From positions 1-46,030 of the forward strand of contig CAMDQN010000046.1 of NCBI GenBank assembly GCA_945905925.1: 46,030 bases of DNA, written 5' to 3'. Position 1 is the stretch's first letter, and the number at the start of each line of letters is the position of its first letter. Made by a program: the position numbers and the translations under genes. Below the pieces are notes generated by a model that saw only the letters and a program-made list of their open reading frames with translations, had not been told where the DNA came from and did no database searches. This stretch comes from Singulisphaera sp. GP187 (GTDB lineage: Bacteria > Planctomycetota > Planctomycetia > Gemmatales > Gemmataceae). Of the stretch, positions 41,271 to 45,838 are shown piece by piece.

Positions 41271-41663
41271 TCATTTGTTCGGAGCACCCTTCACCGGGGT
41301 CCCGGGCAGAGTCGGTGCTGGGAGGAGCGCATCGCCCGGCGCCGGATACGGAATCGCGGGCGGGCGGATCATTTCGTTCGGCGATGGCATGTGGAGTTCG
41401 TCCGGTCGCGGACCTCCGATCGGCCTGATCGGAGGGTACGGATTGCCGGGAATCACACTCGGAGGAATTCCCGGCGAACACGGCACCGGTTGCCCGGTCG
41501 CGGCGTCGAAGCATCCGGTGTTCCGACCGACCGTCTGAAACGAGCGATCGGATTTGGTGTTGGACGTGAACAACCCCGGTCGGTCACCACACCGCGACCG
41601 ACAGCCCGATTGAGCCGCGACTAGAACGACTGCAGCGGCAATCAGTAGCGACCGGCGGAGCAT
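41271..41663 (-). CDS. Proline-rich lipoprotein
   Basis: 130 residues. A hydrophobic leader ends in the lipobox AQSGC, giving a predicted lipidated Cys21. The mature part is Pro/Gly-rich, with a CFDAATGQPVPCSPG Cys pair and a PGNPYPPIRPIGGPRPDE stretch. No domain is recognised. Likely outer-membrane or cell-surface attached. It converges with the thioredoxin-like gene. Confidence 0.8.
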   Translation of the reverse strand: MLRRSLLIAAAVVLVAAQSGCRSRCGDRPGLFTSNTKSDRSFQTVGRNTGCFDAATGQPVPCSPGIPPSVIPGNPYPPIRPIGGPRPDELHMPSPNEMIRPPAIPYPAPGDALLPAPTLPGTPVKGAPNK

Positions 41664-41944
41664 CGCAGAACCCTCTCATCATGACGCAGCGATTTGCCGC
41701 GTCGTGTCGGTTTCCCCAACTTCACTAATTCTGCGCACGAGTTGAGGTTCCGCAACGGAACGAGCGCTACAAAACCTCCGCGCGCAAGAGTTTACCCTGG
41801 CGCTCCGAGCGTAATCGACGAGAACCGAATAACCGTCACGACAGGTGCGACAAGAAAGGGTTCGCCAGCTTTACAGACCTGGAAAAGCAACAACCCAGGG
41901 ACAGCAGTCCCCGGGCTTGGAGGTGTCTGGAGAGGCGTTACTGT
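41664..41944. other. 281-base intergenic region
   Basis: Contains only a small hairpin, GGGAC-AGCA-GTCCC, at 41896-41909. Nothing else is recognised. Confidence 0.5.
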
Positions 41945-44557
41945 TTACTTCTTGTCCTTGATCAACCCGCGCAGGTGGTCGAGCGCTTTCGACAATTGCT
42001 TGTCCTTCGCGGGGTCCACGGAAGCGGGCTTCTTGCCCGGTGGCGGGATCACTTCGAGGTCGCGGCTGTACTCGAACCAGTCGGCGAGTTCTTCGCGTGT
42101 CAGTTTCAACTCGAACCCGGCGTCGGGCTTCACGCCCCATTCGTCTTTCTTCTTCAACTCCGGGTCTTGCTCGGACGCGACCTTGTCGATGTTCTTGCCG
42201 CTCGGCGGGTAATACCGGGCGACCGTGTATTTGATGCGTCCTTCAGTCTGCTCATACGGTTCTACGTGCTGAACGCTGCCCTTGCCGTAGGTGCGCTCGC
42301 CGATGATCGTCGCGCGGCCGTGGTCTTGGAGACACGCGGCCAGAATTTCGCTGGCGCTGGCACTGTTGCCGTTGATGAGTACCACGATTGGGAAGCTCTT
42401 GTCGCCCGCAGCGCGGCCGGAGTAGGTGAAGGTAGCGCCAGCGCCGCCGCGTTCTTTCGTGGTCACGATTGCCTCGCGGCCGACGAACAGTTCGCAGATG
42501 TCGATGACACCCTTGAGCGACCCGCCGGGGTTGTTACGCACGTCGATCACGAGCCCGTTCAGCCCGTTCTTCTTCATGGTCGTGAGCGCCCGCTTGATGT
42601 CGGCGGTCGTGCCGAGTTCGTCCGAGATCGAGATGAACTGGCTCAGGTGCAGGTAGCCGATCTTGCTCTTCTCGTCGATGTAGTAGCCCCAATCCTGCTT
42701 GTCGTCGCGCTTCACACCGTGAACGGTTTCCACCATGACGTAGTTGCGGGTGATGCGGAACTCCTTCGGCTCTTTCTCGCCCTCACGCTGGATCATTAGC
42801 GTAACCGGCGTGTCCGGCTTCCCGGTGATCAGGTTCACCGCGTCGTCGGTCTTCAGCCCCTTGGTACTGTGGATCTTCTTCGCGTCTTCCGGGAGCGGTT
42901 TGCCCTGTTTGTCCACTTCCAGCCGGATTTCCGTGATGAGGTCGCCAGCCTGGATGCCAGCGCGGAACGCCGGGCTGCCCTTGATCGGGGTGACGACGAG
43001 CAACCCATCGCGAACCGCTTCGCGACGGATGATGATGCCGACGCCCGGGAACCGGCCGAACAGTTGCCCCTGCGTGCGGAGCCACTCTTCCTTCGTGTAG
43101 TACCCGGCGTAGGGGTCGTGCAAAGCGCCGATGAGGGCGCGGATGGTCACGTCGGCGGCCTTGTCGCCGTCGAGGTCTTCACGCTTGCCGAGCCGGAGCC
43201 GGGCCTCTGTCATGAGCTCCGTGCCGCGATTGTCGCCGATGTCCTTGGGGGACTTGATCGCGTCGGCGATGTCCGCGGGAAGCGGTTCGTCGGTTTCGGT
43301 GAACATGCCACGAATCGCCAGCGCGGTCAGTTCGCCGCGAGACATCGGCTTGATGTACTCGGCCGACAATTTGTAAACCGATGGCATCACCTTCTTGGTG
43401 AAGTCCGACGCGTCCTCGGCCGCGAGTTTCAGCCCTTCGAGCAGCGACTTGCGTGCGGCTTCGAGGTCGGCCACGGTCCCGCCGTCGGCGAGCTTCTGGT
43501 ACTCTTTGCGAAGCGTCTGGCTCCACTTCAGTTTCGGCATTCGGAACAGCAGGTTGATCGCTTCCTTCGACAGTTCGGGTGTCAACTTGGTGCCCTTCGC
43601 GAGCAGTTCAACGGCTTCGATCCGCTTCTTGATTTTGTCGGTCTCGGCTGGGTTGCGCGTCAACCAGAACTTGCTGGCCCCGCGGCCGACGAACACCGGT
43701 TCGAGTTCCTTTTCCTTGTCTGTCTTGCCGACCATACGAGCCGCGGTGGGGATCTCTTTTTCCAGGTACTTGAGCAGTTCGCGCGTGGTGACGATGCCGT
43801 CCGACTCGTAGCCCTCGTTGTAAGGAGCCTCGTCCGCTTTCCCGCCGAGGCCCGCGGACAACACCGAGAAGAACAGTCCGTGATCGCCCTTCGTGAGCGC
43901 GTCCTGGAACGGCGGATTGCCAAGGATCATGACGCGGTTCGGCGGGAGCATATTGTCGTCTTTTTCGTCGCCGAACACGAGCTTCATGATCTCCGCGTAA
44001 CTCGGCTCGACGACCTTCTCGGTGCCGGCGTCGATCCCGCCCTTGTACTGCACATCCATCATCAAGAGGACGTTCTGGTTCTTGAGCTTCTTGAACGCCG
44101 GCTCCAGGTCGGACATCTGAAGAGCGGTCTTGCCGCGTTCTTTCACTGTGCTATCGGCGGTGAAGAAGCACGGCTTATCGCCGGCCGAAGTTCCACGCCC
44201 GAAGAACGCGAGGATCACCGTGTCTTCGGACCCGGTGGAAGCGACGGCCAAGTCAACGGCCTTGACGACGGCTTCGCGGGTCGCGTCGGCGGAGAGGAGC
44301 AGTTTCGCGCGATCGGCGGAAGCACCGAGGTACTTCTTGTCGGTGAGCATCGCGTGGAGCGCCTTGGCGTCCGCGTCGGCGGTCGGTCGCGGGCTGATCG
44401 CCTTGTCCTTGAACTCGCCAACACCGACGACGACGACATACGGCCCTTGGGCCTTCCCGTTGTCGCCTTCGCGGGGTTGGGCCGAAGCTCGCAAGTTCGG
44501 ACCGACCGTTATTGCGATGGTCGCGATTGCGCCGAGTATCCACAGACGCGCGTTCAT
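41945..44557 (-). CDS. Degenerate-caspase / PDZ / S41 tail-specific protease fusion
   Basis: 870 residues with a signal peptide (about 1-27). Residues 38-290 have a caspase (C14) fold: VVVVGVGEF, DADAKALHAML, TVILAFFGRGT, NVLLMMDVQ. The catalytic His is Arg (GRG, R121) and the Cys is Gln (DVQYKGG, Q170), so it is predicted inactive. A helical linker (about 300-470) is followed by a PDZ-like domain (about 515-635) and the S41 peptidase (about 650-800), with the nucleophile S734 in NSASASE and K759 in TYGKG intact. The tail-specific C-terminal processing protease activity is therefore likely retained. The pseudocaspase may bind substrates or sense peptides. Fusion of these two is unusual. AGAGGAT upstream supports the ATG. 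Confidence 0.9.
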   Translation of the reverse strand: MNARLWILGAIATIAITVGPNLRASAQPREGDNGKAQGPYVVVVGVGEFKDKAISPRPTADADAKALHAMLTDKKYLGASADRAKLLLSADATREAVVKAVDLAVASTGSEDTVILAFFGRGTSAGDKPCFFTADSTVKERGKTALQMSDLEPAFKKLKNQNVLLMMDVQYKGGIDAGTEKVVEPSYAEIMKLVFGDEKDDNMLPPNRVMILGNPPFQDALTKGDHGLFFSVLSAGLGGKADEAPYNEGYESDGIVTTRELLKYLEKEIPTAARMVGKTDKEKELEPVFVGRGASKFWLTRNPAETDKIKKRIEAVELLAKGTKLTPELSKEAINLLFRMPKLKWSQTLRKEYQKLADGGTVADLEAARKSLLEGLKLAAEDASDFTKKVMPSVYKLSAEYIKPMSRGELTALAIRGMFTETDEPLPADIADAIKSPKDIGDNRGTELMTEARLRLGKREDLDGDKAADVTIRALIGALHDPYAGYYTKEEWLRTQGQLFGRFPGVGIIIRREAVRDGLLVVTPIKGSPAFRAGIQAGDLITEIRLEVDKQGKPLPEDAKKIHSTKGLKTDDAVNLITGKPDTPVTLMIQREGEKEPKEFRITRNYVMVETVHGVKRDDKQDWGYYIDEKSKIGYLHLSQFISISDELGTTADIKRALTTMKKNGLNGLVIDVRNNPGGSLKGVIDICELFVGREAIVTTKERGGAGATFTYSGRAAGDKSFPIVVLINGNSASASEILAACLQDHGRATIIGERTYGKGSVQHVEPYEQTEGRIKYTVARYYPPSGKNIDKVASEQDPELKKKDEWGVKPDAGFELKLTREELADWFEYSRDLEVIPPPGKKPASVDPAKDKQLSKALDHLRGLIKDKK

Positions 44558-44722: not shown

Positions 44723-45838
44723 TCACTTCCCCTTAGCCAACCGCCGCAGAATCTCGATGCCGCGATGCAGCGTGGCGTCGGTAGCGGCGTAAGACACACG
44801 AAAGTGCGTATCGCGTCCACTGAACACGTTGCCCGGGATGACGAGCAGGTTATGTTGGATGGCCGAAGTGACGAAATCGGTTCCGGTTCCCCACGGAACT
44901 TTCGGGAACAGGTAGAACGCCCCGCCCGGAATCTCGATGTCGTATACGTCCTTCAACCCGGCGATGAGTAGATCGCGTTTCCGCAGGTAGTCCGCAACGA
45001 TCGCGGACACGTCGAAGTCCATTGCCGCGACGCCGGCCCATTGGACGACACTCGGTGCGCACACGAACGTGAACTGCTGTAACTTCGCGATCTCCGCGAT
45101 CAACCGCTTCGGGCCGTGCGCCCAGCCGAGCCGCCACCCGGTGATACCATAGGTCTTCCCGAAGCCTTCGATTACGAGCACGTCTGGGTCGTGCGCCGCG
45201 GGCGAAAGAGGCGGCCCGTCATAGTGGAACGCGCGATAAATCTCGTCGCTGATGAGCAAGATACCGCGATCGCGAGCAAGTGCCGCTAGCGCCCGTTGGG
45301 TGTTCGCGTCGAACACCGCACCGGTCGGATTCGACGGCGACGAGAGCATGATTGCCTTCGTGCGCGGCGTGATCGCGGCTTCGATTTTCGCGACGTCGAG
45401 TCGGAAATCGGGGTACGTATCGACGGTAACGAGTTTCCCGCCCGCTACCGCGACCATGTTCGGGTACGCCACGAAATACGGATCGGCGGTGATGACCTCG
45501 TCACCGGGGTTCACGACCGCGAGCAGCGCGAGCAACAAGCCGCCGCTTGTGCCACCGGTCACGACAACGTCTCGGTCCTGTCCGGGAAATCGCGATTCGA
45601 CATCGGCGGCGAGGCGCGCGCGAAGTTCGGGAATGCCCTGGGTTACCGTGTAGCCGTTGTGGTTCAGGTCGATGGCCGCTTTCGCCGCGGCTTTGATCGG
45701 GTCCGGCACGTCGAAGTGCGGTTGGCCGATGCTGAGGTTAACTGGGTCTTTGAGCGACCGCGCGAGTTCGAAGACCTTCCGCACGCCGGACACTTCGACC
45801 GCTCGCGCGCGGTCCGCGAACAATGCTTCGGGAATCAC
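44723..45838 (-). CDS. Class I/II PLP-dependent aminotransferase
   Basis: 371 residues from a GTG with AGAGG six bases upstream. Signatures: VNLSIGQPHFDVPDPI, GYTVTQGIPELR, SPSNPTGAV, ISDEIYRAFHY and EGFGKTYGITGWRLGW with the PLP-binding Lys at K228. An Arg in FRVSYA near the C-terminus would bind the substrate carboxylate. The fold is that of aspartate-type aminotransferases; the amino acid substrate cannot be inferred. It lies 62 bases downstream of the truncated gene at the right edge and probably shares a transcript with it. Confidence 0.94.
   Translation of the reverse strand: MIPEALFADRARAVEVSGVRKVFELARSLKDPVNLSIGQPHFDVPDPIKAAAKAAIDLNHNGYTVTQGIPELRARLAADVESRFPGQDRDVVVTGGTSGGLLLALLAVVNPGDEVITADPYFVAYPNMVAVAGGKLVTVDTYPDFRLDVAKIEAAITPRTKAIMLSSPSNPTGAVFDANTQRALAALARDRGILLISDEIYRAFHYDGPPLSPAAHDPDVLVIEGFGKTYGITGWRLGWAHGPKRLIAEIAKLQQFTFVCAPSVVQWAGVAAMDFDVSAIVADYLRKRDLLIAGLKDVYDIEIPGGAFYLFPKVPWGTGTDFVTSAIQHNLLVIPGNVFSGRDTHFRVSYAATDATLHRGIEILRRLAKGK

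Follow-up and report, generated by a model that had tools for sequence, protein, structure and literature searches.

The window, i.e., the whole stretch of 46,030 nucleotides analyzed here, carries on its minus strand a gene whose product is predicted to be an exported, envelope-located S41A carboxy-terminal processing protease (CTP) with a PDZ domain and the Ser-Lys residues of this class, preceded by a caspase-like domain that has lost its catalytic His-Cys dyad. The reading that we favor, at a probability of roughly one half, is that a Gemmatales ancestor acquired a dead orthocaspase-type domain in a single event and that selection has since retained it inside an envelope CTP, where it would bind ligands or regulate the enzyme. 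We file the gene among the CTPs, with an N-terminal domain of a new kind. Its features are as follows.

41945-44557, minus strand: pseudo-caspase CTP gene, a single ORF of 870 aa
44477..44557, minus strand: signal-peptide-like start, residues 1-27 (basic start, hydrophobic core and ASA site, as read from sequence)
43658..44446, minus strand: pseudo-caspase domain (C14-type, p20 plus p10-like), residues 38-300 (Pfam PF00656, AlphaFold2, structure matches)
44369..44371, minus strand: D63, putative first acidic S1-pocket residue (98/98; aligns with the NDA Asp of metacaspase-1)
44195..44197, minus strand: R121, at the place of the catalytic His (alignment; never His in 98 family sequences)
44054..44056, minus strand: D168, putative second acidic S1-pocket residue, D-x-C motif (97/98)
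44048..44050, minus strand: Q170, at the place of the catalytic Cys (alignment; never Cys in 98 family sequences)
43778..43834, minus strand: acidic EF-hand-like loop with D242, E251, D253 and E260 (conservation; putative metal site)
43178..43657, minus strand: helical linker and CTP N-terminal (dimerisation-type) helices, residues 301-460 (AlphaFold2)
42773..43045, minus strand: PDZ domain, residues 505-595 (Pfam PDZ models)
42164..42664, minus strand: S41 protease domain, residues 632-798 (Pfam, TIGR00225)
42356-42358, 42281-42283 and 42269-42271, minus strand: protease residues S734, K759 and Q763, respectively

Assignment to the S41A CTPs is based on a family profile above its cut-off (NCBIfam TIGR00225, C-terminal processing peptidase, 256.6 against 218.6 bits), the presence of Ser-Lys-Gln and a PDZ region ahead of the protease. 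Pfam S41 (PF03572) matched residues 632-798 at 157.6 bits against a cut-off of 24, PDZ models at about residues 505-595 scored slightly below theirs (PDZ_6, 26.8 against 27; PDZ_2, 25.2 against 27), and a weak CtpB_N-like match at 384-425 was also below the Pfam cut-off. By sequence, the best solved relatives are CtpA/CtpB-type proteases, and N-termini resembling the signal-peptide-like start were also found in 19 relatives compared. The Pfam C14 caspase model (PF00656) matched residues 41-171 with 28.1 bits against a cut-off of 21.4. Among 48 aligned members, matches at E<=0.01 were obtained for S41 in 48, PDZ in 44, the CtpB_N-like region in 28 and the caspase domain in only 24, so the fusion is readily missed. 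Among the papers listed in a literature search, conducted mostly outside subscription journals, none was seen to describe the fusion. The genome of the window has seven S41 and four C14 matches in total.

Structure prediction supports a caspase fold in the N-terminal part, as the earlier note had proposed. AlphaFold2 models of the caspase domain alone reached a pLDDT of 94.5 and a pTM of 0.92, and the domain matched MALT1 (8v4x; Z 20.4, rmsd 3.0, 211 residues aligned), the metacaspase AtMCA4 (metacaspase 4, 6w8r; Z 20.3, rmsd 3.0, 220 aligned) and the bacterial protein GSU0716 (3bij; Z 19.5, rmsd 3.0, 211 aligned). Since the aligned ranges cover the whole domain, the model represents a complete caspase fold with p20 and p10-like parts; Foldseek concurs (E ~4e-9), and the domain is thus predicted to belong to the caspase-haemoglobinase fold. 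A chance match to the caspase profile was considered and ruled out by the predicted fold. The model of the mature protein, built from 48 sequences, had a mean pLDDT of 90.1; its front part again matched metacaspase 4 and MALT1 (Z ~20), structural alignment to PDZ-bearing CTPs covers the PDZ region, and the arrangement of the domains relative to each other is predicted with moderate confidence (pTM 0.76).

The earlier note had also claimed that the caspase dyad is replaced by R121 and Q170 and that a PDZ domain and an intact S734/K759 pair follow. These residues are found at the positions given, in the motifs FFGRG (R121), MMDVQ (Q170), NSASAS (S734) and YGKGS (K759). In the family profile, column 121 aligns with the His of the metacaspase SGHG motif, and Q170 takes the position that Cys holds in the D-x-C motif of active relatives, at a strand end in the model. 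A survey of 98 fusion-family sequences identified His at position 121 in 0/98 and Cys at position 170 in 0/98, and the alternative that related proteins keep His and Cys is thus rejected for the fusion relatives. Position 121 is occupied by Q (39 sequences), R (37), E (9), N (7), S (5) or A (1) and position 170 by N (43), Q (17), H (16), A (9), D (7), S (4), T (1) or Y (1). As these residues vary, with 17 pair types among the 98 sequences, the dyad does not appear to have been replaced by one new site. Without the His-Cys dyad the domain is not a C14 peptidase, and it is referred to here as a pseudo-caspase domain. S734, K759 and R674, on the other hand, are each present in 93 of 93 readable sequences and Q763 in 90 of 93; protease residues were unreadable in 5 of the 98 (L102, L112, L122, L165 and L167) due to contig ends, frame changes or a stop. 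Sequence comparison across the order hence supports a dead caspase domain joined to an S41 protease with intact residues.

Both columns could be read with the same profile in 25 distinct stretches of caspase relatives from outside the order; 21 of these carry His and Cys, and the other four read NS, RH, YP and HN. Loss of the dyad is therefore a trait of the fusion family and not of the sampled planctomycete caspases in general. In the available part of a survey of planctomycete metacaspases, HC is reported for only 64% of the proteins, and S41 is nowhere mentioned in the main text of that survey (PMC3501461).

The fusion is widespread in the Gemmatales. With residues 38-300 as the query, 90 of 102 Gemmatales genomes showed a match at E<=1e-10, including 69 of the 71 genomes of good quality, and in the genus of the window 18 of 19 genomes matched at E<=0.001, with strong matches in 17. 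Across the phylum, 392 genomes were sampled, with up to 6 first-look candidates scored per genome, and 13 matched at E<=1e-10; one of these is the genome of the window itself, and the other 12 matched weakly (E 1e-10 to 1e-16). Caspase relatives outside the order were examined at 26 loci (24 matched places in those 12 genomes with ~1.5 kb on each side, plus L169 and L231), and none of these loci showed an S41 domain. Within the order, by comparison, the same ORF matched both the caspase and the PDZ-S41 parts in 94 of 97 strong places besides that of the window, two of these ORFs being shortened (L112 and L122), and the ORF stops before the PDZ-S41 part in L102, L165 and L167. In L102 (G024) and L122 (G027) the fusion copy is split over two frames, which could reflect either an assembly frameshift or a real break. 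Two or three pseudo-caspase CTP copies per genome were observed in G032, G019, G027, G043, G060, G061 and G063. A peptide-pattern scan of a named genome collection identified 62 loci, mostly from genomes labeled Gemmata, Gemmataceae, Gemmatales, Fimbriiglobus, Zavarzinella formosa, Planctomycetota or Planctomycetaceae; a few bins labeled Bacteroidales, Candidatus Kuenenia or Singulisphaera appear to be misnamed.

Other caspase-domain proteins were found along the way. A second dead caspase-like family is represented in the genome of the window by a 569 aa protein (G000:C17:43361-44062; L004, L030), with relatives in L022, L026, L027, L028, L031 and L032; it forms its own clade and has R at the His place and D at the Cys place in all rows read. 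Two further caspase-domain proteins are encoded in the same genome (G000:C11:64429-65109, L001; G000:C84:1665-2219, L003), one of them with WD40 repeats, and His and Cys are present in both, by alignment in L001 and by motif reading in L003. Outside the order, L169 (G462), L050, L058 and L231 have two caspase stretches each, with His-Cys intact in those read. Caspase fusions outside the order (two scanned) involve WD40 (L049, G462 locus) or an FGE-sulfatase domain (L231, from Phycisphaerae, in which the caspase keeps HC).

Phylogenetic analysis placed the caspase domains of the fusion proteins in one clade with a support of 100/100, apart from both the active caspases and the second dead family; this tree included 49 of the 98 fusion rows after filtering at 66% identity, with L165, L167 and outgroup stretches shorter than 170 aa excluded. 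Row sets comprised 31 of the 98 sequences (A1), the window plus 47 of the 62 scan loci after exclusion of 4 short rows (L231 among them) and of near-identical rows (A2), and the window plus 50 of the 62 loci (A3). The dead domain is under strong purifying selection and is held about as tightly as the protease, with dN/dS values of 0-0.142 for p20 (12 of 13 pairs, the other being saturated) and of 0.008-0.167 for S41 (12 of 13 pairs, the other giving no value). In 9 of 11 pairs, p20 had a lower dN/dS than the helical linker. A search for related protease cores in 199 genomes, with up to 8 candidates scored per genome, gave 33 matches besides that of the window, the related CTP cores elsewhere in the phylum having 36-42% identity; 26 of these proteins are 431-613 aa long and 7 are 743-795 aa long. 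Of the seven longer proteins, L259 alone was fetched (784 aa), and it has a different N-terminus. No caspase match at E<=1 was found on either strand in 19 of 19 sister CTP loci fetched, in all of which the protease itself was seen. Most simply, these data suggest that the fusion arose once in the Gemmatales line and that the dyad was lost there once, early on.

The single clade, the low dN/dS of p20 and a near-invariant acidic residue pair, described below, support the view that the dead domain does something. The suggestion of the earlier note that the pseudo-caspase is a sensor or regulatory module thus stands in so far as it implies a functional domain; that this function is one of sensing or regulation is what we infer. 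It is very improbable that the caspase domain performs other chemistry or is a degenerating relic. Polar or charged residues do prevail at positions 121 (Q/R/E/N/S) and 170 (N/Q/H/A/D/S), but the pair is not fixed, and a relic is rejected by the p20 dN/dS values together with order-wide retention. We know of no hydrolase that uses R/Q or Q/N at the dyad positions.

In conservation, D63 and D168 rank near the top of the domain, as do D242, E251, D253 and E260 of the acidic loop, whereas positions 121 and 170 come only 136th and 181st of 263. Judged by motif position and partial profile alignments rather than by superposed coordinates, D63 and D168 are probably the counterparts of TbMCA2 Asp95 and Asp211, to which the accessible parts of two reports assign the holding of basic substrate residues (PMC4357240, PMC6426788). 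The latter, in the same part, also describes dead cyanobacterial orthocaspases that retain the acidic S1 pair (PMC6426788). By analogy with these orthocaspases and with the Asp pair of TbMCA2, a non-cutting receptor for basic peptide segments would be the favored role. A role of the Asp pair in fold stability is possible as well, because active relatives share the pair and the second dead family keeps D168 (D63 was not aligned in most rows of that family). In the genus of the window, R121 might occupy and block the acidic pocket.

Building on the favored reading of a regulatory module acquired once, a mechanism can be proposed in which the dead domain still binds peptides without cutting them, namely basic, Arg- or Lys-bearing segments and possibly together with Ca2+, with the two Asp of the S1 pocket contacting basic residues as in orthocaspases. 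Once bound, the domain would recruit substrates to the PDZ/protease core or gate this core, and, as an N-terminal receptor adjoining dimerisation-type helices, it could act in cis as the LbcA and NlpI adaptors act in trans. In its full form, i.e., a built-in receptor whose S1 pocket reads basic segments of envelope proteins and licenses a PDZ-gated serine protease across the order, this proposal is tentative and on balance unlikely. If true, a single chain would combine two protease folds unrelated to each other, one for caspase-type recognition and one for proteolysis.

A purely structural role, in which the dead domain binds no substrate and instead determines the oligomer or links the protease to a partner in the envelope, is a serious if rather unlikely alternative. 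CTPs act as dimers or hexamers and caspases dimerise, and here the domain directly precedes helices resembling the N-terminal dimerisation helices of CTPs; moreover, the dead-site residues vary and core glycines and hydrophobic residues are kept. Conserved acidic S1 residues and an EF-hand-like loop would, however, be needless for a scaffold, even though they may stabilise the fold.

The conserved acidic loop could also be part of a Ca2+-responsive switch, with calcium binding by D242, E251, D253 and E260 shifting the pose of the PDZ and protease domains. Many metacaspases require calcium, and dyad-intact planctomycete caspases carry D-x-N-x-D-G-x-V-T-x-x-E loops, which we take to be EF-hand-like. 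Calcium-dependent rearrangement is described for TbMCA2 in the available portion of one of the above reports (PMC4357240). In the fusion family, however, the loop has an insertion and an altered first position, and the alignment showed that active relatives carry the same acidic loop, which may therefore just belong to the fold; a switch of this kind is thus improbable.

The neighborhood of the gene offers one candidate partner. The relevant features are:

44723..45838, minus strand: class I/II aminotransferase, upstream (Pfam)
41892..41917, minus strand: terminator-like hairpin between the protease and lipoprotein genes (11-pair stem)
41271..41663, minus strand: small proline-rich lipoprotein-like gene, 130 aa, downstream (candidate partner)

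Of 90 testable loci, 41 have a proline-rich lipoprotein ORF immediately downstream of the protease gene and on its strand, as compared to 26 of 2860 random windows, a rough control because these windows were not restricted to stretches just behind genes. One of the 42 loci initially flagged (L104) was dropped as spurious. By homology 9 more loci matched, of which 4 are clear and were counted (L076, L099, L117 and L158) and 5 are weak (E about 1e-5 to 1e-6). Roughly half of the testable loci yielded no such lipoprotein, including L072 and L073, which are close relatives of the window. The hairpin between the two genes argues against a simple operon; the window stretch contains 10 terminator-like hairpin sites versus 4.5 expected. 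An aminotransferase relative lies upstream in at most 36 of the 98 loci, an upper figure since antisense shadow frames appear in the single-linkage clusters, and no compelling partner was seen in the neighbor clustering of the 98 loci. The lipoprotein represents a lead as a partner of the pseudo-caspase CTP; it could anchor the enzyme or be its substrate, which would be the weakest step of the mechanism proposed above.

Compared with known S41A CTPs (CtpA, CtpB and Prc), the protein shares N-terminal helices, a PDZ domain and Ser-Lys-Gln at identical spacing. The best structural match of the protease part is Helicobacter pylori CtpA (9jr1; Z 32.8, rmsd 2.9, 350 residues aligned), and the spacing of Lys at +25 and Gln at +29 from Ser is the same as that of S300, K325 and Q329 in this enzyme, as numbered in the title of entry 9ku3. 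Unlike these proteases, it has a dead caspase domain of ~265 residues in front, which was found in none of the 19 CTPs from other orders that were retrieved for comparison. Control of an envelope CTP by a non-catalytic module would resemble the LbcA-CtpA and NlpI-Prc systems, NlpI being the adaptor that controls Prc, except that LbcA and NlpI are separate TPR lipoproteins and that here a caspase fold would act in cis. The ORF at 41271-41663 showed no Pfam match at E<=1, and hence no TPR of the kind found in LbcA/NlpI-type adaptors. According to the parts available of the respective papers, LbcA shifts the PDZ domain of Pseudomonas aeruginosa CtpA and realigns the catalytic residues of this enzyme (PMC11021448), and the roles of PDZ differ between Prc and CtpA/B (PMC6686036). 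The fusion family bears on how CTPs, several of which are adaptor-dependent, select their substrates, and on envelope proteolysis in planctomycetes, which is poorly understood.

With the cyanobacterial pseudo-orthocaspases (YS/YN variants, SyOC), as described in the accessible text of PMC6426788, the domain has in common the p20 fold, the lost His-Cys and the retained acidic S1 pair. Unlike the YS/YN variants, the fusion family never has Tyr at position 121 (0/98), with Asn at 170 in 43 and Ser in 4 of 98 sequences, and its pairs include R/Q, Q/N, E/D, N/H and others. A signal-peptide-like start, fusion to a residue-intact serine protease and the presence of a p10-like part further distinguish it from the cyanobacterial proteins, and the terms S41 and Planctomycetes have 0 occurrences in the available text of that paper (PMC6426788).

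To our knowledge, most pseudoproteases described so far either stand alone or partner proteins of their own kind. In cFLIP, a dead caspase regulates the active caspase-8, and the cFLIP-caspase-8 complex (3h11) is among the structure matches of the caspase domain. While cFLIP acts in trans, caspase on caspase, the pseudo-caspase of the Gemmatales would act in cis on an unrelated serine protease; joined to a residue-intact protease and kept across an order under strong selection, it provides a clean test of what a non-catalytic caspase fold can do.
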